Shown here: one piece after another, positions 4,790-14,327 of the stretch
Position numbering within the stretch: position 1 is the first letter of the stretch
Layout: every line of letters begins with the position of its first letter
Source: Pseudomonas graminis
GTDB lineage: Bacteria; Pseudomonadota; Gammaproteobacteria; Pseudomonadales; Pseudomonadaceae
Reading direction: 5' to 3'
Length of the DNA: 64,000 nt
NCBI RefSeq assembly: GCF_013201545.1
Contig: NZ_CP053746.1
Span: 4,354,501-4,418,500, forward strand
Notes under the pieces: generated by a model
The model's database searches: none
Seen by the model: the letters and a program-made list of their open reading frames with translations, nothing else
What the model was told of the DNA's origin: nothing
Program-made: the position numbers and the translations under genes

Positions 4790-7462
4790 TCAGACGGTAA
4801 TCGGATCGACTTTCTCAACGTCAATCTGCATCTCGGCCAGCGCGCGGGCCACCACTTGCCGGTCGATTGCACCCTCGTCAGCCAGGGCTTTCAGCGCTGC
4901 CAGCACGACAAACTGACGGTCCACTTCGAAGTGCCGGCGCAGCGCTTCGCGGGTGTCCGACTGCCCGAAACCATCGGTGCCCAGCGCGACGAAGCGACGA
5001 TTGCCGATCCACGGACGGATCTGGTCAGCGTGGATTTTCATGTAGTCCGTCGCGACCACCACCGGGCCAGGGTGCCCTTCGAGCACCTCGGTCAGATACG
5101 GCACTTTCGGCTCTTCCAGCGGATGCAGCAGGTTCCAGCGTTCGACCTGCTGCGCCTCACGGCGGACCTCGGTGAGGCTGGTTGCCGACCAGACGTCGCT
5201 GCTCACTTGGTACTCGCTGGCGAGGATCTCCGCCGCTGCGATGACTTCGGGGAGGATCGAGCCACTGCCCATCAGCTGAACGTGGCGACCGGGCTGGGCC
5301 TCGCGTTCGATCGGCAGTCGATACAGGCCCTTGAGAATGCCTTGTTCGGCGCCTTCGGGCAGTTCGGGGTGCGGGTAGTTCTCGTTGAGCAGGGTGATGT
5401 AGTAGTAGATGTCCTCCTGATCGACGTACATGCGGCGCATGCCGTCGTGGACGATGACCGCCAATTCGTAGGCATACGTCGGGTCGTAGGAAACGCAGCA
5501 CGGCACGGTGGCCGACATCACGTGGCTGTGACCGTCGTCGTGCTGCAGGCCTTCACCCATCAGGGTGGTACGCCCGGAGGTTGCGCCGAGCAAAAAGCCT
5601 CGAGCCCGCGCGTCCCCTGCGGCCCAGAGCAGATCACCGACCCGCTGGAAGCCGAACATCGAATAGAAGATGTAGAACGGCAGGGTCATTACGCCATGGT
5701 TGGCGTAGGAGGTACTGGCCGCGATCCAGGATGACGTCGCCCCGGACTCGTTCAGACCTTCCTGCATGATTTGCCCGTCAGTGCTTTCCTTGTAGTAGGA
5801 CAGCGTGCCGGCATCCTGCGGCGTGTAGAGCTGGCCGACGTGGGAATGAATGCCGATCTGGCGGAACAGGTTTTCCATGCCGAAGGTGCGCGACTCGTCA
5901 GGCACGATGGGGACGATGAGCTTGCCGATGTTCGGGTCTTTCAGCAGCGTGGCGAGGATCCGCACGAAGGCCATGGTGGTGGAGATCGCACGGTCACCGG
6001 TGCTTTTCAGCTGCACCTCCAGCGCCGCCAACGGCGGGATCTGCAACGGCTCGACCTCGGCGTGCCGGGCGGGAATCTGGCCTCCGAGGCTCGCGCGTCG
6101 GGCGCGAAGATACCGGGCTTCGACGCTGTCTTCATCCGGTCGCAGGTAAGGCATTTCGCCCAGCAGGTCATCGCTCAGCTCAAGCCCGAAACGGTCGCGG
6201 AATGCCTTGACCGCGTCGCCGCCCATTTTCTTCAGTTGATGGTTGATGTTCTGGCCTTCGCCCGCTTCGCCCATGCCGAAGCCCTTCACCGTTTTGGCGA
6301 GGATCACCGTGGGCCGACCGGTCTTGCGAGATGCCGCGGCGTAGGCGTTGTAGACCTTGACCGGGTCGTGGCCGCCACGGGTGAGTTTCCAGATCTGGTC
6401 GTCGGTCATGTCGCTGACCAATTCCAGAAGCTCGGGGTATTTGCCGAAGAAGTGCTCGCGCACATAAGCGCCGTTCTGGGACTTGTACGTCTGGTACTCG
6501 CCGTCGACGCATTCCATCATGCGCTGGCGCAACAGGCCCGATTTGTCCTTGGCCAGCAGTTCGTCCCAGCCACCCCCCCAGATCACCTTGATCACGTTCC
6601 AGCCGGCGGCCCGGTACAGGCTTTCAAATTCCTGGATGACTTTGCTGTTCCCGCGCACCGGCCCGTCAAGGCGTTGCAGGTTGCAGTTGACGACGAAAAT
6701 GATGTTGTCGAGCTTTTCGCGCCCGGCGAGGGAAATGGCGGCCAGGGATTCCGGCTGGTCCATTTCGCCGTCGCCCAGAAACGCCCAGACCTTGCGGCCC
6801 TGATGCTCCTTGAGGCCACGGTTTTCCAGATAACGCATGAAGCGCGCCTGGTAGGCGGCCGTGATCGGGCCCAGGCCCATGGACACGGTCGGGAATTGCC
6901 AGAAGTCGGGCATCAGGCGGGGGTGGGGATAGGACGACACACCGTCGCGATCGGTTTCCCGGCGGAAGTTATCGAGCTGCGCCTCGGTGAGACGGCCCTC
7001 GGTAAAGGCCCGGCCGTAGATCCCCGGCGCCGAGTGACCCTGGATATACACCAGATCGCCGGCGAAGGTGTCTGTCCGGCCGCGGAAAAAATGATCGAAG
7101 CCCACGTCGTAGAGCACTGCCGCCGATGCGTACGTGGCGATATGGCCACCCACGCCGGAATGCTTGCCGGCCCGCAGGACCATGGTCAGGGCGTTCCAGC
7201 GGATAAAGGCGTTGAGGCGCTTTTCGATGCCGAGGTCGCCCGGGTAAGGCAACTCGCGCTCGGGGGGAATGGTGTTCACGTACGGCGTGGTGACGCGTCC
7301 ATGGAAGTCACCATGAACAGAAACGTCAAAATCGAGCAATTGGTCGATCAGGAAGTGGGCCCTGGGGCGGCCTTCTGCCTCGACGACGGATGCGATCGAG
7401 TCAATCCATTCGCGGGTTTCTTGTGGATCCTCGTCGCGAAGCAGGTAGCTCTGTTCCATCAT
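4790..7462 (-). CDS. aceE: Pyruvate (or other 2-oxo acid) dehydrogenase E1, homodimeric AceE type, second-copy
   Basis: Thiamine-diphosphate E1 component of 890 residues, matching the usual AceE length (887 in E. coli). The TPP motif is present (GDGEMDQP ... NCNLQRLDGPV), as is the active-site segment GLQHDDGHSHVMSATVP, and the transketolase-like C-terminal domain is complete. The start at 7462 has AGGAG five bases upstream (an adjacent ATG at 7459 is equally good). No E2 (aceF) or E3 gene is nearby, unlike the housekeeping aceEF operon, so it must borrow an E2 or act on another 2-oxo acid, as MdeB of P. putida does with 2-oxobutyrate. Its promoter shares two palindromes with the divergent marR gene. 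Confidence 0.9.
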   Translation of the reverse strand: MMEQSYLLRDEDPQETREWIDSIASVVEAEGRPRAHFLIDQLLDFDVSVHGDFHGRVTTPYVNTIPPERELPYPGDLGIEKRLNAFIRWNALTMVLRAGKHSGVGGHIATYASAAVLYDVGFDHFFRGRTDTFAGDLVYIQGHSAPGIYGRAFTEGRLTEAQLDNFRRETDRDGVSSYPHPRLMPDFWQFPTVSMGLGPITAAYQARFMRYLENRGLKEHQGRKVWAFLGDGEMDQPESLAAISLAGREKLDNIIFVVNCNLQRLDGPVRGNSKVIQEFESLYRAAGWNVIKVIWGGGWDELLAKDKSGLLRQRMMECVDGEYQTYKSQNGAYVREHFFGKYPELLELVSDMTDDQIWKLTRGGHDPVKVYNAYAAASRKTGRPTVILAKTVKGFGMGEAGEGQNINHQLKKMGGDAVKAFRDRFGLELSDDLLGEMPYLRPDEDSVEARYLRARRASLGGQIPARHAEVEPLQIPPLAALEVQLKSTGDRAISTTMAFVRILATLLKDPNIGKLIVPIVPDESRTFGMENLFRQIGIHSHVGQLYTPQDAGTLSYYKESTDGQIMQEGLNESGATSSWIAASTSYANHGVMTLPFYIFYSMFGFQRVGDLLWAAGDARARGFLLGATSGRTTLMGEGLQHDDGHSHVMSATVPCCVSYDPTYAYELAVIVHDGMRRMYVDQEDIYYYITLLNENYPHPELPEGAEQGILKGLYRLPIEREAQPGRHVQLMGSGSILPEVIAAAEILASEYQVSSDVWSATSLTEVRREAQQVERWNLLHPLEEPKVPYLTEVLEGHPGPVVVATDYMKIHADQIRPWIGNRRFVALGTDGFGQSDTREALRRHFEVDRQFVVLAALKALADEGAIDRQVVARALAEMQIDVEKVDPITV

Positions 7463-7512
7463 TACATCTCCTGAAAATGGCATCAGCGGGCCGTTGTTCA
7501 ACCCGCTCATCG

Positions 7513-7524
7513 TTGCAATTGCAA
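7513..7524. promoter_or_regulatory. Perfect TTGCAATTGCAA palindrome, candidate MarR operator O1
   Basis: A 12-bp perfect palindrome between aceE2 and marR, about 50 bp from the aceE2 start. The same sequence pattern recurs at 7550-7565 and at 9164-9175, upstream of the other divergent pair in this block. MarR dimers bind palindromes of this size; binding is inferred. Confidence 0.65.
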
Positions 7525-7549
7525 TTGAATCTAGCGTCATTGCCGCTAT

Positions 7550-7565
7550 GATTGCAACTGCAATC
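7550..7565. promoter_or_regulatory. Near-perfect palindrome GATTGCAACTGCAATC, candidate MarR operator O2
   Basis: A 16-bp near-palindrome (only the central base pair step differs), centred 39 bp from O1 and 30 bp before the marR start codon. It shares the TTGCAAnTGCAA core and is placed for autoregulation of marR. Confidence 0.65.
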
Positions 7566-7587
7566 AACCCTAGGATTTGGAGATACC

Positions 7588-8052
7588 ATGGCCACCCCAT
7601 CGCCAGACCTCTGGTACAACTTCATTCGGGCGCACCGCTGCCTGATCAAGGAAATCGAGCGGCGGCTGGCGGAAGAACAGCTGCCGCCGTACGACTGGTA
7701 TGACGCGCTCTGGGGTATCGAAAGCGGGCAGGACGGCGCCCGGAGGATGCACGAACTCGCTGACGTCATGGCCATCGAACGCTACAACCTCACCCGGCTG
7801 GTTGACCGTCTGGAGAAGGAAGGATTGGTCACCCGGGAGAAGTCCCTCGAGGACGGGCGCGGCGCCATCGCCCGGATCACCGACGCCGGCCGGACCCTGC
7901 GCAAACGGATCTGGCAGGTCTACAAGCAGGCCGTCGAGGAACTGTTTCTGGTGGAGTTCGATGACGATCAGAAACGCCTGTTTGCGGACGCGCTGGAAAA
8001 TGCCAGCCGCAACGCCCGCCAATCCCGAAAAATCTCTCAGACCAGCCGATAG
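7588..8052 (+). CDS. MarR-family transcriptional regulator
   Basis: Dimeric winged-helix regulator of 154 residues. The recognition helix region (LADVMAIERYNLTRLVDRL) and the wing (SLEDGRGAIARITDAGR, the MarR DxR...LT pattern) are clear at about residues 55-100, flanked by dimerisation helices. The start at 7588 was chosen for the GGAG six bases upstream; an ATG at 7552 lies inside operator O2. It is divergent from aceE2 and its 3' end overlaps the convergent AceE-like gene by 16 bp. MarR proteins usually repress and are released by phenolics, electrophiles or oxidants. Likely targets are its own gene, aceE2, the AceE-like gene and the glutathione transferase, because all share the same palindrome. 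Confidence 0.85.
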   Translation: MATPSPDLWYNFIRAHRCLIKEIERRLAEEQLPPYDWYDALWGIESGQDGARRMHELADVMAIERYNLTRLVDRLEKEGLVTREKSLEDGRGAIARITDAGRTLRKRIWQVYKQAVEELFLVEFDDDQKRLFADALENASRNARQSRKISQTSR

Positions 8053-9107
8053 CGGTCCAGCGCCTGGCTGACAAGCGCAGTGCTGATCTGCTCGAGATTC
8101 GCCAGCTCGCGCAGGGCCGTCATCGCGATCCAGTGCCGGTCCAGGCGTTGATGGGGTTCCAGGCTGTCGGCACCCAGCGCGGTGAACGGCCCCCGCACAT
8201 GGGCCGCCAGTTGTGCCGCGACGAACTCTGCGTACCCGGTCACGGCAACCACCGGGGTCTGCGAGCTGCCGAGGCAGTCCTGCAGATGGCTGGTCCTCGG
8301 TGCCTCGCCGCGCAGAAGGCGTTTATGCCGGGACTGGCGTTCTGCGTCCCGCGCCAGTTTGGTGTAGCTGGGGCAGCTCCACACTTCGGCGGCGATGCCC
8401 CAGTCATCGTGCAGGATCTGCGCGGCGGCTTGCACCTCCCGCAGCATGAGTCCTGCGCCAAGCAACCGAACCTGCGGTGCCACGGGGGTCGGGTTGTCCA
8501 ACCGGTACATCCCCATAAACGCCTGGGTCCGATCACACGCCAGCCCATCACCGCTTTCATCGTGCAGCGTCATGTAGCAGAAGCCGGGCGCCCCTTGCAC
8601 ATAGAGTTCGTCAAGCGCACCGATAAGTATTGCCCTGGCTTCATCGCCACTGGCGGGGTCGAAAGGGATGCAGTGCCGATTGGAGGCCAGCCACAACGGC
8701 AACCACGGGTGAGCACCTTTTGCCCAGCGCGACGGGGAAGACTCAATGTCATTGAGAACAATGCCTCGCTGCCCGGTCTGGGACGTGAGCATCGAGAGGT
8801 GCGCGGAGGTGGCTGACTGAGTCATGTAGAACAACGGCCGCTCATCGTTGCGCGTCGGTTCGCTGAACCACAACGGCCACGCACTGATCGCCGTGCCGGT
8901 GGATGGCTCGTGGGCACGGTCGTTGACCTTCCAGAATTGGCCGCGGGTGCGCTGATCGCTTTCAAGGCGCTTGATCAGATCGACAACGGTAAAGAGCGGA
9001 GAACTCTGGGTGACCACTCCCGACAGGTGGCTGTGCTCAATGCACTCGATGCACGCCTGAGCCGCCGATTCGGTCCTGGCGGTGCGCTGTAAACGAAGGC
9101 TATCCAT
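8037..9107 (-). CDS. Free-standing AceE C-terminal-half protein, probably non-catalytic
   Basis: A 356-residue protein that aligns with the C-terminal half of AceE. Residues from about 155 (CIPFDPASGDEARAILIGAL, matching CVSYDPTYAYELAVIVHDGM of the aceE2 product) to the end follow the transketolase-like C-terminal domain (VRLLGAGLMLREVQAAAQIL matches VQLMGSGSILPEVIAAAEIL). The TPP-binding half is absent, and the GLQHDDGHSH active-site segment is replaced by ESSPSRWAKGAHP, so it cannot be an E1 by itself. It may modulate or pair with the neighbouring AceE paralogue. The start at 9107 has CAGGAG ten bases upstream. It is divergent from the glutathione transferase and shares a MarR-type palindrome with it. 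Confidence 0.75.
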   Translation of the reverse strand: MDSLRLQRTARTESAAQACIECIEHSHLSGVVTQSSPLFTVVDLIKRLESDQRTRGQFWKVNDRAHEPSTGTAISAWPLWFSEPTRNDERPLFYMTQSATSAHLSMLTSQTGQRGIVLNDIESSPSRWAKGAHPWLPLWLASNRHCIPFDPASGDEARAILIGALDELYVQGAPGFCYMTLHDESGDGLACDRTQAFMGMYRLDNPTPVAPQVRLLGAGLMLREVQAAAQILHDDWGIAAEVWSCPSYTKLARDAERQSRHKRLLRGEAPRTSHLQDCLGSSQTPVVAVTGYAEFVAAQLAAHVRGPFTALGADSLEPHQRLDRHWIAMTALRELANLEQISTALVSQALDRYRLV

Positions 9108-9163
9108 GAAGATGAAACTCCTGTGACTGTCTTGCGGGGTGCTAAAGGAATAATGCAGACTCA

Positions 9164-9175
9164 TTGCAAATGCAA
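9164..9175. promoter_or_regulatory. Palindrome TTGCAAATGCAA, candidate MarR operator O3
   Basis: Same TTGCAAnTGCAA pattern as O1 and O2, placed between the AceE-like gene (start 9107) and the glutathione transferase (start 9196). It is 20 bp before the transferase start codon, where bound repressor would block transcription. Confidence 0.6.
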
Positions 9176-9195
9176 CCACAAGGACGGAACCTTCG

Positions 9196-9825
9196 ATGAA
9201 TACTGCCTCGCTGCACCTGTACACGGCCGATACTCCCAACGGCCAGAAAATCCCCATCGCCCTCGAAGAACTCGGCCTCGACTACACCCTGACCCCTGTC
9301 GATCTGAACAAGGGCGAGCAGAAAGCCCCTGACTTCCTGGCCCTCAACCCGAACGGAAAAATCCCGGTCCTGATCGATCGCGCCAACGGCGTGACGCTGT
9401 TTGAATCGGCAGTGATCCTGACTTATCTGGCTGATCAGCACGCTGCACTGGGTGGCGAGAACCCGGCGGAACGCCTGCAGGTCCAGCAATGGCTGAGTTT
9501 CCAGATCGCAAGCGTGGGGCCGATGCTCGGACAGCTCTGGTGGTTCCGCCATGCCAGCACGATCGCCAACGACCAGGCGCTGGACCGCTACCGTAAAGAG
9601 TCGCTGCGGCTCTACAAGGTAGTGAACAGTCAACTTGCCGATCGCGAGTACATTGCCGGCCAGCGCTACACCATCGCCGACATTGCGCTGTTCACCTGGC
9701 TGCGCACGTATGAAGAACTGGACCTGGACATTTCGCTGTTTCCGGCGGTGCGCGCCTGGTTGCAAACCATCGAGCAGCGCCCGGCCGTCAAGCGAGGGCT
9801 GGCAACCTCTCGCCAGGAACACTGA
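9196..9825 (+). CDS. Glutathione S-transferase, YghU/YfcG (Nu-class) like
   Basis: Cytosolic glutathione transferase of 209 residues. The N-terminal thioredoxin-like domain carries LYTADTPNGQKIPIALEEL, with the T-x-N-G pattern of the bacterial YghU/YfcG group, which often act as disulfide-bond reductases; FESAVILTYLAD is the glutathione gamma-glutamyl contact. The all-helical C-terminal domain (from about 90) includes YTIADIALFTWL. An AAGGACGG ribosome site precedes the ATG. The MarR-type palindrome 20 bp upstream suggests induction together with the AceE paralogues, possibly by an electrophile or oxidant. Confidence 0.85.
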   Translation: MNTASLHLYTADTPNGQKIPIALEELGLDYTLTPVDLNKGEQKAPDFLALNPNGKIPVLIDRANGVTLFESAVILTYLADQHAALGGENPAERLQVQQWLSFQIASVGPMLGQLWWFRHASTIANDQALDRYRKESLRLYKVVNSQLADREYIAGQRYTIADIALFTWLRTYEELDLDISLFPAVRAWLQTIEQRPAVKRGLATSRQEH

Positions 9826-9865: not shown

Positions 9866-10564
9866 ATGCATTTCAACGCTCCGCTTTTCGTCAGGCCGGG
9901 CCAGGATCCAAACCTGGCCACCCTGATCGAGCACTTGCCCTCGGAAATAGACTGCCCGTTCACCTACGCCACCATCGACAAACGCACCTTTGGCCTGTCG
10001 AACTTCCTGTCCAGCTTCCCCATTGCCTGGCAGCGCAAATACTGCGGCGAGGCACTGCACCGCGTCGATCCGATCATTTCCCACGGCGTGCAAAGCGTCG
10101 CGCCTTTCCACTGGACCGAAGCCTACCGGCGCAAACCCGTGCAGGGGCAGGGCGCATTCGAGCAGCTCACCCGAGAGTTCTCGATGCAGGACGGCTACAC
10201 CTTCGTCGTCCACGATCCGCAACAGCGCATGGGGTTGTTGAGTCTGGTCAACCGCGAGCAGAGTCCGCACTTCCACCGCCAGATCCAGCACATTAAAGGC
10301 ACGCTGCAACTGGCATTGGTGGCGTTTCACAGCGGCATGAACCCGGACGCGATGTCGCAGAACACCGCAGAGCCGCCACTCACTGTCCGCGAGCACACGA
10401 TTCTGGGTTGGGTGTCCCTCGGCAAGTCCTACAGCGAGATCGCCTGCATCTGTGACATCCGTGTGCGCACGGTCAAGTTCCACATGGCCAACATCGTGCG
10501 CAAGCTTGAGGTCGACACCGCCAAGCAGGCGGTGTTTGTGGCGTCCCGCCTGGGAATCGCCTGA
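9866..10564 (+). CDS. LuxR-type acyl-homoserine-lactone receptor/regulator (LuxR solo in this window)
   Basis: Quorum-sensing regulator of 232 residues. The N-terminal autoinducer domain has the invariant pocket residues with canonical spacing: W55, Y59, D68, P69 and W83 (equivalent to TraR/LuxR W57, Y61, D70, P71, W85), and a Gly near 110. The C-terminal LuxR helix-turn-helix (about 168-225) includes LTVREHTILGWVSLGKSYSEI. An in-frame ATG at 9857 is also possible; 9866 was chosen because AAGAAG sits nine bases upstream. No luxI-type synthase is in the window. The gene precedes the rohP-like operon, in the same direction, with a perfect lux-box palindrome between them, so that operon is its likely target. 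Confidence 0.88.
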   Translation: MHFNAPLFVRPGQDPNLATLIEHLPSEIDCPFTYATIDKRTFGLSNFLSSFPIAWQRKYCGEALHRVDPIISHGVQSVAPFHWTEAYRRKPVQGQGAFEQLTREFSMQDGYTFVVHDPQQRMGLLSLVNREQSPHFHRQIQHIKGTLQLALVAFHSGMNPDAMSQNTAEPPLTVREHTILGWVSLGKSYSEIACICDIRVRTVKFHMANIVRKLEVDTAKQAVFVASRLGIA

Positions 10565-10571
10565 CGGGGGT

Positions 10572-10594
10572 GCCGGTGCGCCTTCTGCACCGGC
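10572..10594 (+). terminator. Hairpin after the luxR gene
   Basis: Perfect 8-bp stem GCCGGTGC / GCACCGGC with a 7-base loop, 8 bases after the luxR stop. There is no T-run, so it may attenuate rather than stop transcription, separating luxR from the next operon. Confidence 0.45.
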
Positions 10595-10626
10595 GCATCC
10601 GACAAGGCTGCGCGGGCAAGCGTTGC

Positions 10627-10642
10627 CTGTACCTAGGTACAG
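10627..10642. promoter_or_regulatory. lux box (perfect 16-bp palindrome) upstream of the azomycin-type operon
   Basis: CTGTACCTAGGTACAG is a perfect palindrome, resembling the lux/las-box class of LuxR operators. Its centre is 82 bp before the rohP-like start. TACAGA at 10661-10666 is a plausible -10 element, which would put the box over the -35 position, the place from which LuxR activators recruit RNA polymerase. The adjacent upstream gene encodes an AHL-type LuxR protein. Confidence 0.75.
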
Positions 10643-10704
10643 TTTCGGGGCGAAAAGGAATACAGAATGATTGCCGGGCAGCCCTGATAACAAACCCACA
10701 ATGA

Positions 10705-10716
10705 GAGGGATCCCTC
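10705..10716 (+). promoter_or_regulatory. Palindromic ribosome-binding site of the rohP-like gene
   Basis: GAGGGATCCCTC is a 12-bp perfect palindrome ending directly at the ATG at 10717; its left half contains the Shine-Dalgarno GAGGG. Folding on itself (4-bp stem, 4-base loop) could partly hide the ribosome site. Confidence 0.5.
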
Positions 10717-11910
10717 ATGACGTTCTCTGCCCAGCCCGTCAGTACGCATGAAGCACGTGTCCTGGAAGACATTACTCAGCACGAAATTACCGCCCTCAAA
10801 ACCCGGCACAATCTTGCCGATGCCCACACCCACCAGAACCAGAGCCGCACCCAGGCCGACATCGTCCGAAAGCTCCCCCAGTTGTGGCAACGCGCGCAGA
10901 CGCTGACCCAATACGAGAGCGAGCAAGCGTTCATCAAGGCATTTTTTCAGTTTCACGGTCAGCACCATGCGCTCAAGCGCAGCGATGAGATTTACCTGGT
11001 GTACGCCGCCTCGGTGGCGATGCACATCACCGCCACCTTTCTGCGCAAGCACGACATGAGCGTCGCCCTGATCGAACCCTGCTTCGACAACCTGCACGAT
11101 CTGCTCAAGCACATGGAAGTGCCGATGACCCCGCTGCCGGAGGCGATCCTGGCTGACCCTACCCAGGTCTACCGGCTGCTGGAGAAAACCGCATCGTCGG
11201 TCGACGCGATCTTTCTGGTGGACCCGAACAACCCGACCGGCACGTCCATGTTCGCCGAGGGCCCGGAAACCTTTATCGAAGTCGCGAAGTACTGCCGCGA
11301 TCACGACAAGATCCTGATTCTGGACTTCTGCTTCGCCTCGTTTCTGAAGGTAACCGGCGGTCAGCGCGTCGACGCCTACGCGATCCTCGATGAGATCGGC
11401 ACCGACTACCTGGTGATGGAAGACACCGGCAAAACCTGGCCGCTGCAGGACACGAAATGCGCGACATTGATGAGCAGTCGCCGCTTGAACCCGGAGATCT
11501 ACAGCATCGTCACCAGCGTGCTGCTCAACGTTTCACCCTTCATTCTTCAAGTCGTCACCGAGTACATCAACGACAGCGAAGCCGATGGCTTTGCCTCCGT
11601 TCGCGACGTGCTGCAGACCAACCGCAAGGTGGCACGCGAATACCTTGAAGGCACGATGCTGCGCTACGTAGAACCGGCCATTGAAACCAGCGTCGCCTGG
11701 TTTGAAATCCAGCGCGATGACCTCTCGGGCGATGACCTGCAAGCCTACCTGCTGACCCATCAGGCCTACGTCTTGCCCGGTCGCTATTTCTTCTGGAGCC
11801 ATCCGGAGCAAGGCCGCTCTTTTGTGCGCCTGGCCCTGGCCCGTGACCCTGACGCTTTCGAAGAGGCTCTGCAGGTTATCCGCCAGGCGCTGGAGGCTTA
11901 CGATGCTTGA
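10717..11910 (+). CDS. rohP: PLP- and O2-dependent L-arginine oxidase/hydroxylase, MppP/RohP family (azomycin pathway)
   Basis: Fold-type-I PLP enzyme of 397 residues. It carries the hallmarks of the arginine oxidase group (MppP, RohP) rather than of ordinary aminotransferases: N-terminal NLADAHTHQ, then CFDNLHDLL, DPNNPTG, an Asp pairing with the PLP ring in ILDFCFASF (D203), the internal-aldimine lysine in MEDTGKTWP (K239), and VLPGRYFFW plus FVRLALAR near the C-terminus. RohP turns L-arginine into 4-hydroxy-2-ketoarginine with O2. It is first in a five-gene overlapping operon (8-base overlap with the next gene) whose order matches the azomycin cluster of Streptomyces cattleya. A plain aminotransferase is the alternative, made unlikely by EDTGKTW and the neighbours. 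Confidence 0.85.
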   Translation: MTFSAQPVSTHEARVLEDITQHEITALKTRHNLADAHTHQNQSRTQADIVRKLPQLWQRAQTLTQYESEQAFIKAFFQFHGQHHALKRSDEIYLVYAASVAMHITATFLRKHDMSVALIEPCFDNLHDLLKHMEVPMTPLPEAILADPTQVYRLLEKTASSVDAIFLVDPNNPTGTSMFAEGPETFIEVAKYCRDHDKILILDFCFASFLKVTGGQRVDAYAILDEIGTDYLVMEDTGKTWPLQDTKCATLMSSRRLNPEIYSIVTSVLLNVSPFILQVVTEYINDSEADGFASVRDVLQTNRKVAREYLEGTMLRYVEPAIETSVAWFEIQRDDLSGDDLQAYLLTHQAYVLPGRYFFWSHPEQGRSFVRLALARDPDAFEEALQVIRQALEAYDA

Positions 11911-12415
11911 AGAGGCGCCGATGATTGATGCGACGGTATTCATGGGCATGCATCACCAAAATGCCGACATCCGCGCCAAGTCGCTGGGGTTTTTCACCCG
12001 GCGCTATCACAGCGAAGTGCGCATGAGCTTCAGCCAGATTGGCGTCTGCGATGCCATTATCTGGAAGAAAGCCCGCGAGCTTCAGGACGTTTACTACCCC
12101 TTTATGGATGTCCTGCACTCCGACATGAACATTCTGCGCGCGGGCTACAGCGACGCAGCGCTGACCCGGGCGGCCAGCAGCCCGGCGTTGGCCGGGCTGT
12201 CTGCGGAAAAGCGCCTGCAGGCGGCGCAGGTGCTTGAGGCCGATTGCCTGTTCTACACCCATGACCGCGACTACCAGAACTGCGCAGCGCTGAAACCGCA
12301 CCTGGCCTCATTCGACGCCGCGTCCGGCGTCCATGGGTTTCCCGACGGGTTGCAGCGGCTGTACAACGCCTCCCTTGAGCTGGTCATTGCCGAGGAGGAT
12401 TACCAGCATGTCTAG
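11903..12415 (+). CDS. rohQ: Small protein matching the RohQ position (2-aminoimidazole-forming cyclodehydratase of azomycin pathway)
   Basis: A 170-residue soluble protein of no common family that I can name firmly; it resembles the DUF6190 / PIN-like group, with acidic positions in MIDATVFMGMHHQNADI near the start and FYTHDRDYQNC near residue 113. The start at 11903 follows GGAGG and overlaps the preceding stop by 8 bases. In the azomycin pathway RohQ closes guanidinoacetaldehyde to 2-aminoimidazole, and this gene holds the same slot between the arginine oxidase and the aldolase. The function is therefore inferred from operon order rather than from a motif. Confidence 0.6.
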   Translation: MLEEAPMIDATVFMGMHHQNADIRAKSLGFFTRRYHSEVRMSFSQIGVCDAIIWKKARELQDVYYPFMDVLHSDMNILRAGYSDAALTRAASSPALAGLSAEKRLQAAQVLEADCLFYTHDRDYQNCAALKPHLASFDAASGVHGFPDGLQRLYNASLELVIAEEDYQHV

Positions 12416-13253
12416 ACACCAAGTGCTGGTGCCCCTGGTGACGCCACTCGACGCCGACGCGAGGGTCTGCCGGCAAAGCGTGAAGCAGCTCGTTCATGCC
12501 TGCGGGCCGCTGGTTGACGGGTTCATCCCGTGTCTGACCTCAGGCGAAGGCTGGAATCTGTCCGCCGCGCAGTGGACCGACATGCTCACGTACACCCTCG
12601 AGTTTGCCGGGGACACCCATCGCGTTGTGGCGGGCATTGAGCTCCCCACCACTGAGGAGGTAATTGAACGGGCCGAACGGGCGCGCAAGCTTGGCGCCAG
12701 GGAAATCATCGTGACGTCACCCTTTGCCCCCGGCATCAGTCAGGCGCAAATTCTGGCCCATTACCAGGCGATTCACAGCCGCACCCCGCTGGACCTGCTG
12801 GTCTACAACGAATCGGCGCTGTCGGGTAATGAAAAGAGCTTCGATACGCTGTTGAAGATTGCTCGGCTGGAGCGTGTGACCGGCCTCAAGGACTCGCCGA
12901 GCCAGGCGCGGACGCAGGCGCAGATCGACCGCATTCGGGGGGAGGGCGTGGATTACTTCATCGGCTGGGAGCGGGAACTGGCCGGCGCGTTGATCAGCGA
13001 TGGAAACGTTGTCTCCCTTGCCAACCTCGAGCCGGCCCTGTGCCGGGTGGCCTGCCTCGCACAGCAGCCAGACGTTGCAGCCATCGTGGCCCGGCTGAAT
13101 GACACATTCTGCCTGGGTGAGGATGACTGGTACGCACACGTGAAGCGCGAACTGGCGGCCCGCGGGGTCCTGCGTTCGTCGCTCACGACACAGAAACATA
13201 ATGCTCACGAGCGCGTTGCTCTCGAGCCAGTCAGTGCGGAGTACGCCAGATGA
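12408..13253 (+). CDS. rohR: DapA-family retro-aldolase, RohR-like (4-hydroxy-2-ketoarginine cleavage)
   Basis: A class I aldolase of the dihydrodipicolinate synthase / N-acetylneuraminate lyase family, 281 residues. The Schiff-base lysine is K161 (GLKDS) and the conserved tyrosine Y133 (LLVYNES), the same numbers as in E. coli DapA. The loop LTSGEGWNL stands for the usual GTTGE. In the azomycin pathway RohR splits 4-hydroxy-2-ketoarginine into guanidinoacetaldehyde and pyruvate, a reaction typical of this fold. It cannot be a housekeeping dapA in this context. The start at 12408 follows GAGGAGG and overlaps the preceding gene by 8 bases; the end overlaps the next gene by 4. Confidence 0.8.
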   Translation: MSRHQVLVPLVTPLDADARVCRQSVKQLVHACGPLVDGFIPCLTSGEGWNLSAAQWTDMLTYTLEFAGDTHRVVAGIELPTTEEVIERAERARKLGAREIIVTSPFAPGISQAQILAHYQAIHSRTPLDLLVYNESALSGNEKSFDTLLKIARLERVTGLKDSPSQARTQAQIDRIRGEGVDYFIGWERELAGALISDGNVVSLANLEPALCRVACLAQQPDVAAIVARLNDTFCLGEDDWYAHVKRELAARGVLRSSLTTQKHNAHERVALEPVSAEYAR

Positions 13254-14095
13254 TCGTTTCCCAGAAATCGCTGTTTCGCGCAAACCGGGCACTGATCGAG
13301 ACGCTTCAGCCCATCCCCGCCGAGCTGCTGGACTTTGAGCAGCAATGGCTTGACGCTGCGATCCGCGACAGCATGACCGAGCAGCAGCCAGCCAATCTGG
13401 GCGAACTGCGCGCCATGCTCGCGGCGCTGGTGGAACACGACAAGGCAGAAGAGCCGGAGACGGCGCGCTATGTGGCCGAACATATGAGCCTGGACGAATT
13501 CAAGATCCTCGTGCAGGAGTTCGCCCTCGACGGTCTCACCGAAGCCCAGGTGTTTTATCACCTCATGCCGCGTCTGAGCCTTGAGGCCCAGATGCCCATG
13601 CTGCGGATGATGATCGACGAATTCGGCTCGGGGAACATCAAGCGTTCGCACACCACGCTCTATCAGGTGCTGCTGGATGAACTGGGCATGCCGACGGATC
13701 TGGAAAGCAATATTCAGGCGAACGCCGAGGCAGGCTGCACCTTTCCCAACATGTTCTGCTGGCTGACCATGCGTGCCCAGGATCCGTCATATTTCGCTGG
13801 CGTCATCACTTACTTCGAGACGGTGGTGCCGTTCTTCTTCGGTTGCTACACCACGCTGTGCGACAGGCTCGGGATCAAAGCCCACACCTATTACAGCGAA
13901 CATGTGCACATCGACGTCTTCCATGCCCTTGAAGGTCAGCGGCTGCTCAAAGCGATGGACAACGACAAGCAACTGAACCACGCCAATGCCTGGCAAGGCA
14001 TCTGCATGGGGCGGTTGATCACCAACCATGCGTTCGATCAGGCGGTGTACAAGGCTCAGTCGATCAAAATCGGCGAGGGCGTTGCCCATGCTTGA
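13250..14095 (+). CDS. rohS: Haem-oxygenase-like diiron N-oxygenase, RohS-like (2-aminoimidazole to 2-nitroimidazole)
   Basis: An iron-dependent oxygenase of the haem-oxygenase-like diiron (HDO) fold, 281 residues. All seven ligand positions known from the N-oxygenase SznF can be placed: E90 (VQEFALDG), E124 and H134 (DEFGSGNIKRSH), the extra glutamate E190 (YFETVVP), and H218, D222, H225 (EHVHIDVFH). The extra glutamate favours amine N-oxygenation over the decarboxylase/desaturase HDOs such as UndA. RohS oxidises 2-aminoimidazole to azomycin, the last step of the pathway. The gene starts on a 4-base ATGA overlap with the aldolase gene and overlaps the Rieske gene by 8. Confidence 0.8.
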   Translation: MIVSQKSLFRANRALIETLQPIPAELLDFEQQWLDAAIRDSMTEQQPANLGELRAMLAALVEHDKAEEPETARYVAEHMSLDEFKILVQEFALDGLTEAQVFYHLMPRLSLEAQMPMLRMMIDEFGSGNIKRSHTTLYQVLLDELGMPTDLESNIQANAEAGCTFPNMFCWLTMRAQDPSYFAGVITYFETVVPFFFGCYTTLCDRLGIKAHTYYSEHVHIDVFHALEGQRLLKAMDNDKQLNHANAWQGICMGRLITNHAFDQAVYKAQSIKIGEGVAHA

Positions 14096-14327
14096 CGAAG
14101 GGGAAGTGGCAGTGAGGCCGGCGACCTTCGTGATTCAGGCCGGGGAGGACCTCTACGAAGTGCCCAGTCTGTGCCCGCACCGCGAGGGCTGGCTGGAGCA
14201 TGGGACGGTCAATCACAACCGACGGACGATCGCCTGTCCGCTGCACTTCTCGGTGTTCAGTCTGGAAACGGGCGAGCAGTTGAGCGGGCCTGCCTGCGGA
14301 AATCTGACCTGCCGAAAATTGACGTGA
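14088..14327 (+). CDS. Small Rieske [2Fe-2S] protein, last gene of the azomycin-type operon
   Basis: A 79-residue Rieske ferredoxin-like protein. The cluster ligands are C29, H31, C50 and H53 (CPH, 18 residues, CPLH). At 79 residues it is shorter than typical Rieske ferredoxins (about 100-110) because the N-terminal strand region is reduced. It overlaps the diiron oxygenase gene by 8 bases and is probably its electron donor, since a HDO needs two electrons per oxygen cycle; that role is inferred. It sits where the S. cattleya cluster has its fifth gene (RohT), but I am not certain of that gene's family, so no symbol is given. Confidence 0.75.
   Translation: MLDEGEVAVRPATFVIQAGEDLYEVPSLCPHREGWLEHGTVNHNRRTIACPLHFSVFSLETGEQLSGPACGNLTCRKLT

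Follow-up and report, generated by a model that had tools for sequence, protein, structure and literature searches.

A LuxR solo beside a rohPQRST-type azomycin operon in Pseudomonas graminis, possibly answering the acyl-homoserine lactones of neighbours

The closest described relatives of the locus reported here, a luxR gene followed by five rohPQRST-type genes in a 64,000-nt stretch of Pseudomonas graminis DNA (contig NZ_CP053746.1, 4,354,501–4,418,500; hereafter the window), are the azomycin (2-nitroimidazole) operon rohPQRST of Streptomyces and the luxRI-rohPQRST loci of P. syringae, DF41 and CMR5c (PMC12713392; J Bacteriol, November 2025). That paper counted 165 Pseudomonas genomes with rohPQRST, which adjoined luxRI ‘in all cases’; the operon was required for azomycin in DF41, and quorum control was proposed. 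Psyr_1622/1621 are AhlR/AhlI (PMC5654926, PMC3658600), and the AhlR/AhlI signal is 3-oxo-C6-homoserine lactone (3-oxo-C6-HSL; PMC7691447). Receptors without a synthase, the LuxR solos, have been sorted in fluorescent pseudomonads into subgroups A–I, and none of these nine is described as adjoining azomycin genes in the text available of PMC8546723. Solos of plant-associated bacteria (PAB), which answer plant ligands, have one or two substituted pocket residues (PMC3909224).

The window shares with the luxRI-rohPQRST loci the same operon and the same box by rohP, whereas those loci have luxI between luxR and rohP together with a second box of its own, and the window has no luxI and one box. In B728a the regulon of AhlR is said, from work of Scott and Lindow in 2016, to include genes at the roh locus; if so, control of the luxI-bearing operon by N-acyl-homoserine lactones (AHLs) has already been shown. 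Among the open-licence papers searched, roh genes adjoining LuxR without LuxI were unreported. The linkage of rohPQRST to LuxR in Pseudomonas is known, and the luxI-less arrangement is the new part. A sequence-only reading of this DNA had taken control by a LuxR solo to be new; the word solo holds, as LuxI was matched neither at the locus nor in the genome, and the novelty of the LuxR linkage itself does not, as it has been published (PMC12713392). We consider it an evenly balanced proposition that this azomycin operon is switched by a solo LuxR answering the AHLs of neighbouring bacteria.

A luxI-less rohPQRST locus and its putative operator

The five genes downstream of luxR (Table 1) all lie on the plus strand in the order P-Q-R-S-T, with each start overlapping the end of the preceding gene, and their coordinates and Pfam families agree with the sequence-only reading, which had recognized five overlapping genes in the order and with the enzyme types of the azomycin pathway. 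Residues that it had named were located, with EDTGKTWP (K239) and DPNNPTG (169) in RohP and K161 and Y133 in RohR, as were the perfect lux-box palindrome and the upstream gene for a predicted AHL receptor of LuxR type, which has both Autoind_bind and GerE and keeps nine canonical residues intact. Moreover, the pyridoxal-5′-phosphate (PLP) protein and the haem-oxygenase-like diiron oxygenase (HDO) group with RohP and RohS and not with other relatives, which strongly supports the call of an azomycin-type operon and is the opposite of the sequence outcome that the sequence-only reading had named as refuting. In comparison with solved structures, RohP scored 414 bits against 6c3a, which we take to be RohP although the database entry is titled ‘Uncharacterized protein’, and 198 bits against MppP; RohS scored 424 bits against 9pfw and 417 bits against 9pfx (‘PbrRohS’), and the next structure was SznF with 39 bits. 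The five genes, order, families and checked catalytic residues of the Streptomyces operon are all kept here, whereas the window RohP is ∼51% identical to that of S. tanashiensis. The stretch 10717–14327 is almost certainly a rohPQRST operon, an identification as firm as sequence permits.

RohP at an identity of at least 60% was present in 20 of the 398 genomes sampled from the genus, two broken copies included; the remaining matches were remote. Class A (10 genomes, RohP 68–72% identical to the window's) has luxI at the locus in 10/10, class B (eight genomes, namely that of the window and seven with RohP at 78–97%) has it in 0/8, and in the two genomes of class C (RohP 60–63%) neither LuxR nor LuxI was found within 7 kb. 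We annotated 61 long neighbourhoods, including named loci beyond the genus sample: LuxR-LuxI-RohPQRST was the arrangement in 11 (all 11 class A loci; RohR was not recovered in L040) and LuxR-RohPQRST in nine (all nine class B loci). At the remaining 41, which come from Streptomyces, other Actinobacteria, other Proteobacteria and cyanobacteria, and a few of which are cut by contig ends, the window LuxR was unmatched within 7 kb, a further difference between the Streptomyces loci and the window. The window locus lacks the adjoining luxI of a canonical luxI/luxR pair; what it has is an Autoind_bind–GerE protein with no linked luxI, a LuxR solo. The LuxI model PF00765 was run over 21 genomes and matched 13, so that the model works, and 14 control genomes were all unmatched. 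In class B it found nothing anywhere in six of eight genomes (G000, G182, G348, G350, G345 and G117); four of these are drafts, in which a gap could hide the gene, whereas the window genome is one contig, in which LuxI was unmatched both at the locus and throughout with this model, synthases of other families falling outside it.

Upstream of rohP lies the perfect 16-bp palindrome CTGTACCTAGGTACAG, which resembles a lux box and was the sole match within three mismatches in the window, and 5/100 shuffles gave one. The pattern CTGYACYTAGGTRCAG, allowed one mismatch, fits the 5.52-Mb genome at one place, this same palindrome; because a backwards control pattern also gave one genome match, a chance match at this level is not rare. 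A site within four mismatches precedes rohP in 20/20 class A and B loci, and occurred in 113 of 10,000 base-shuffled upstream regions. Class B keeps the box within two mismatches in 9/9 loci, and class A keeps it by rohP within four mismatches in 11/11. The second box, on the luxI side, is there within four mismatches in all 11 class A loci and in none of the nine of class B; further sites at this threshold were absent from the nine class B stretches and occur in two class A loci (L041 and L093). A −10-like hexamer, chosen by eye, follows the box by 23 bp, and at this distance class B has AATGAT in seven loci, AATCAT in one and AAGTAT in one. What stands at the predicted target promoter is hence a conserved and specific palindrome, as would be expected of a LuxR-type operator. 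A second perfect palindrome, GAGGGATCCCTC (10705–10716), immediately precedes the start of rohP; it is shared with G182, and the seven remaining class B loci have it in imperfect form only.

The receptor and its history

The window LuxR matches Autoind_bind with about 82–83 bits and GerE with 51 bits. Nine residues that we take to be the canonical set (W57, Y61, D70, P71, W85, G113, E178, L182 and G188 in TraR numbering) are intact in 9/9 class B and 11/11 class A LuxRs. W57 and Y61 are also named in PMC3909224. Six residues of the AHL pocket were checked and are intact in all nine class B LuxRs, and two Burkholderia-type relatives have Leu in place of Trp57. In PAB solos, the substituted pocket positions are Trp57 and Tyr61 and a pip gene is adjacent, whereas here the pocket is kept and the neighbours are a glutathione S-transferase (GST) gene and rohP. 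The ratio of nonsynonymous to synonymous substitution rates (dN/dS) in four pairs was 0.05–0.10 for LuxR and likewise 0.05–0.10 for RohS, with dS saturated in two of the pairs; by this measure luxR is under purifying selection, a gene kept working.

Although the window LuxR is only 33–35% identical to the class A LuxRs, both classes carry the same recognition-helix residues, RTVKFHM(A/S)N; this is weak evidence, because most of them recur in remote LuxRs. Among 5.8 billion proteins, a search confined to relatives with short words in common with the query gave 12 LuxRs at 57–93% identity and then two at 31–32%, and a class-wide search of 369 genomes gave the window genome and one remote match at 32%. 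The Burkholderia glumae proteins are among the closest known, with LuxR (P0012) 55–57% and RohS (P0052) 59–61% identical; the window LuxR itself stands at 55%, and the B. glumae LuxR differs in the Leu at the Trp57 position.

In a tree of the concatenated operon, class B forms one clade and A and B together form another (ultrafast bootstrap support 100 each), and class B joins the luxI-bearing T1-3-2/G287 with a support of 79. Two alternatives were not rejected by the approximately unbiased test, namely all luxI loci together (p 0.31) and A with B apart from T1-3-2/G287 (p 0.07). Loss of luxI in class B from a class A-type locus is not proved; loss in B and gain in A are both possible. In the LuxR tree, class B and Burkholderia split from class A and two remote proteins (support 95), with a weak rooting, as P0013 and P0014 have very long branches, whereas in the RohS tree Burkholderia falls outside all A and B loci. 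These different placements suggest a regulator swap, and probably one lineage changed its regulator, either of the two being a candidate. As an indirect hint on the Burkholderia gene neighbourhood, the records of LuxR P0011 and RohS P0048 both give a longest contig of 9875 bases.

Operon genes and chromosomal neighbours

Table 1. Features of the luxR-roh locus, with positions counted in the window
Feature	Position	Strand	Remarks
luxR solo, AHL-receptor-type regulator, 232 aa	9866..10564	+	Autoind_bind and GerE; no adjacent luxI
Lux-box-like perfect 16-bp palindrome, CTGTACCTAGGTACAG	10627–10642	.	palindrome; conserved before rohP in classes A and B
−10-like hexamer AATGAT	10666..10671	+	23 bp after the box; chosen by eye
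rohP, PLP-dependent arginine oxidase/hydroxylase, PLP Lys239	10717..11910	+	Pfam Aminotran_1_2
rohQ, DUF6190 protein	11903..12415	+	Pfam DUF6190
rohR, DapA-fold aldolase, Lys161 and Tyr133	12408..13253	+	Pfam DHDPS
rohS, haem-oxygenase-like diiron N-oxygenase	13250..14095	+	Pfam Haem_oxygenas_2
rohT, small Rieske [2Fe-2S] protein, CxH...CxxH	14088..14327	+	Pfam Rieske

Identities to the proteins of G268 are 70% for RohP, 56% for RohQ, 59% for RohR, 68% for RohS and 58% for RohT, and a plasmid collection held zero matches to RohS. Residue conservation was followed in 31 operons, those of the window and of 30 of the 60 other long annotated loci. The PLP lysine of RohP is kept in 30/31 rows, the exception being the open piece of a broken parafulva copy, and Lys161 of RohR in 29/30, the exception being a broken Halomonadaceae copy; Tyr133 of RohR and the CxH/CxxH pairs of RohT are invariant. 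In RohS, many Glu, Asp and His positions are invariant across the 31 rows. A 363-aa protein (P0091), listed with PF14518 and PF00355, is an apparent RohS-RohT fusion, in keeping with a supply of electrons to RohS by the Rieske protein. Three Pseudanabaenaceae metagenome-assembled genomes (L072, L074 and L075) have a RohP relative (48–49%) followed by a RohR-like gene, with RohQ, RohS and RohT unmatched nearby, and such loci perhaps make a different arginine-derived product.

At 4790–9825, adjoining luxR-roh, the window has a second full-length pyruvate dehydrogenase E1 (AceE2), a MarR protein, a lone E1 C-terminal-domain protein (TK_C) and the GST. AceE2 is 58% identical to the genome's other E1 copy, which adjoins an E2-like open reading frame. 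The same AceE2-MarR-TK_C neighbours are found in most luxRI-rohPQRST loci, and GST in some; the three genes lie downstream of roh in L038 and AceE2 alone does so in L090, the position elsewhere being upstream, and AceE2 was unseen in L034 and L079. TK_C was found in 18/18 class A and B roh genomes (in G212 on another contig), and was matched in 56/380 other genomes, where some matches are the C-termini of full-length AceE. From these 56 genomes we took 12 TK_C loci without adjoining roh (11 from roh-less genomes and one from G171 of class C), of which 10 have all three genes and two have TK_C and GST, and with the cut-offs applied luxR, luxI and box were all absent from 12/12. Both luxR and box are present at 20/20 class A and B loci, which answers the question of the sequence-only reading whether they accompany the operon: in the loci examined, luxR and box travel with the operon and not with the chromosomal place. 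AceE2-MarR-TK_C was considered as a part of the system; as TK_C is found in many other genomes, AceE2 was unseen in two loci, and the 12 loci, ten of them with all three genes, lack luxR and box, the module is treated as a neighbour and not as a proven part; the spare E1 could serve self-protection or be a coincidence. A draft genome labelled as the window's species (G020) gave no rohP or TK_C match, GST at 36% only, and one luxI; presence of the roh locus is thus apparently variable in this species.

Candidate inputs and the case for eavesdropping

In the proposed mechanism, the synthase-less LuxR would bind an AHL from other bacteria and sit on the palindrome, ∼43 bp ahead of the inferred transcription start, with the box in place of a −35 element; LuxR would then recruit polymerase, and the five genes, transcribed from one LuxR-dependent promoter, would turn L-arginine into azomycin, so that the antibiotic would be made. 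The parts of this reading differ in strength. LuxR very probably controls the operon; an AHL is probably its ligand; and given an AHL, there is a strong likelihood that the signal is foreign and not the cell's own. As the search for a LuxI-type synthase was negative, foreign AHLs are a better fit for the input than the strain's own density. We infer that the window copy makes azomycin, with the need of the operon for this product carried over by analogy from the relative DF41, that the ligand is an AHL supplied by neighbours, and that LuxR activates and does not repress.

Several observations weigh against this reading. The class B genomes G395 and G080 carry two luxI each, away from the roh locus, and PF00765 is blind to other synthase families, with the 14 control genomes unmatched though 13/21 genomes were matched. 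A second Autoind_bind protein of the window genome, which brings the total to two, is likewise above the family cut-off (31 bits versus 23), and the hexamer found at the corresponding spacing varies among class A loci. The rohP gene is broken in two of the nine class B loci, both without luxI, through decay or sequencing error (L076 8001–9192, P. parafulva NBRC 16636; L079 8001–9159, Pseudomonas sp. KNUC1026). Moreover, genes flanking Pseudomonas LuxR solos were mostly not under their control in the conditions used (PMC8546723, 2021), and DC3000 and B728a possess the operon, yet azomycin was undetectable in culture (PMC12713392).

Four other explanations, which partly overlap, bear on these points. 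It is unlikely that LuxR answers a non-AHL ligand, such as a plant compound, a pathway intermediate or another metabolite: pocket substitutions in most solo subgroups of fluorescent pseudomonads may mean such ligands (PMC8546723), and the Burkholderia-type relatives have their Leu at the Trp57 position, whereas the six checked pocket residues are intact throughout class B, unlike in PAB solos. Self-quorum control as in P. syringae, by an own AHL from a non-LuxI synthase or by a distant luxI paired with a window-type LuxR, would accord with the luxRI adjoining roh in class A relatives (also in PMC12713392) and with the distant luxI genes of G395 and G080; we think it quite unlikely, as LuxI was unmatched in the six class B genomes with a model, of the LuxI family only, that matched 13/21 genomes. 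EsaR is a LuxR-family repressor released by AHL, and a window LuxR of this kind, or a ligand-independent one, is very unlikely, since in 9/9 class B loci the spacing between the box and the inferred −10, itself chosen by eye, resembles that of an activator site. That the operon makes an azomycin relative or halts at 2-aminoimidazole is highly improbable: all five genes are there with the checked catalytic residues conserved, and DF41 requires an orthologous operon to make azomycin (PMC12713392).

If the reading of a solo LuxR answering foreign AHLs is right, and we hold the wider statement to be possible but a little short of an even call, a Pseudomonas clade controls by eavesdropping an antibiotic operon that in its cousins is under self-signalling, and azomycin would be made when competitors announce themselves. 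This version would have the same operon and operator and mostly the same chromosomal neighbours, no synthase, and a LuxR that resembles the Burkholderia protein more than it does the cousins' AhlR. With the class B loci, the published rule that in Pseudomonas the operon always adjoins luxRI needs qualifying, and class B defines a group of LuxR solos for which one target is predicted. Competition sensing has often been put forward, with an antibiotic made once a rival's signal is perceived; here it would, if true, be tied to one operator and one antibiotic. Because the operon occurs naturally both with a signal gene of its own and lacking one, and the box is common to both forms, self-signalling and eavesdropping could be compared directly.

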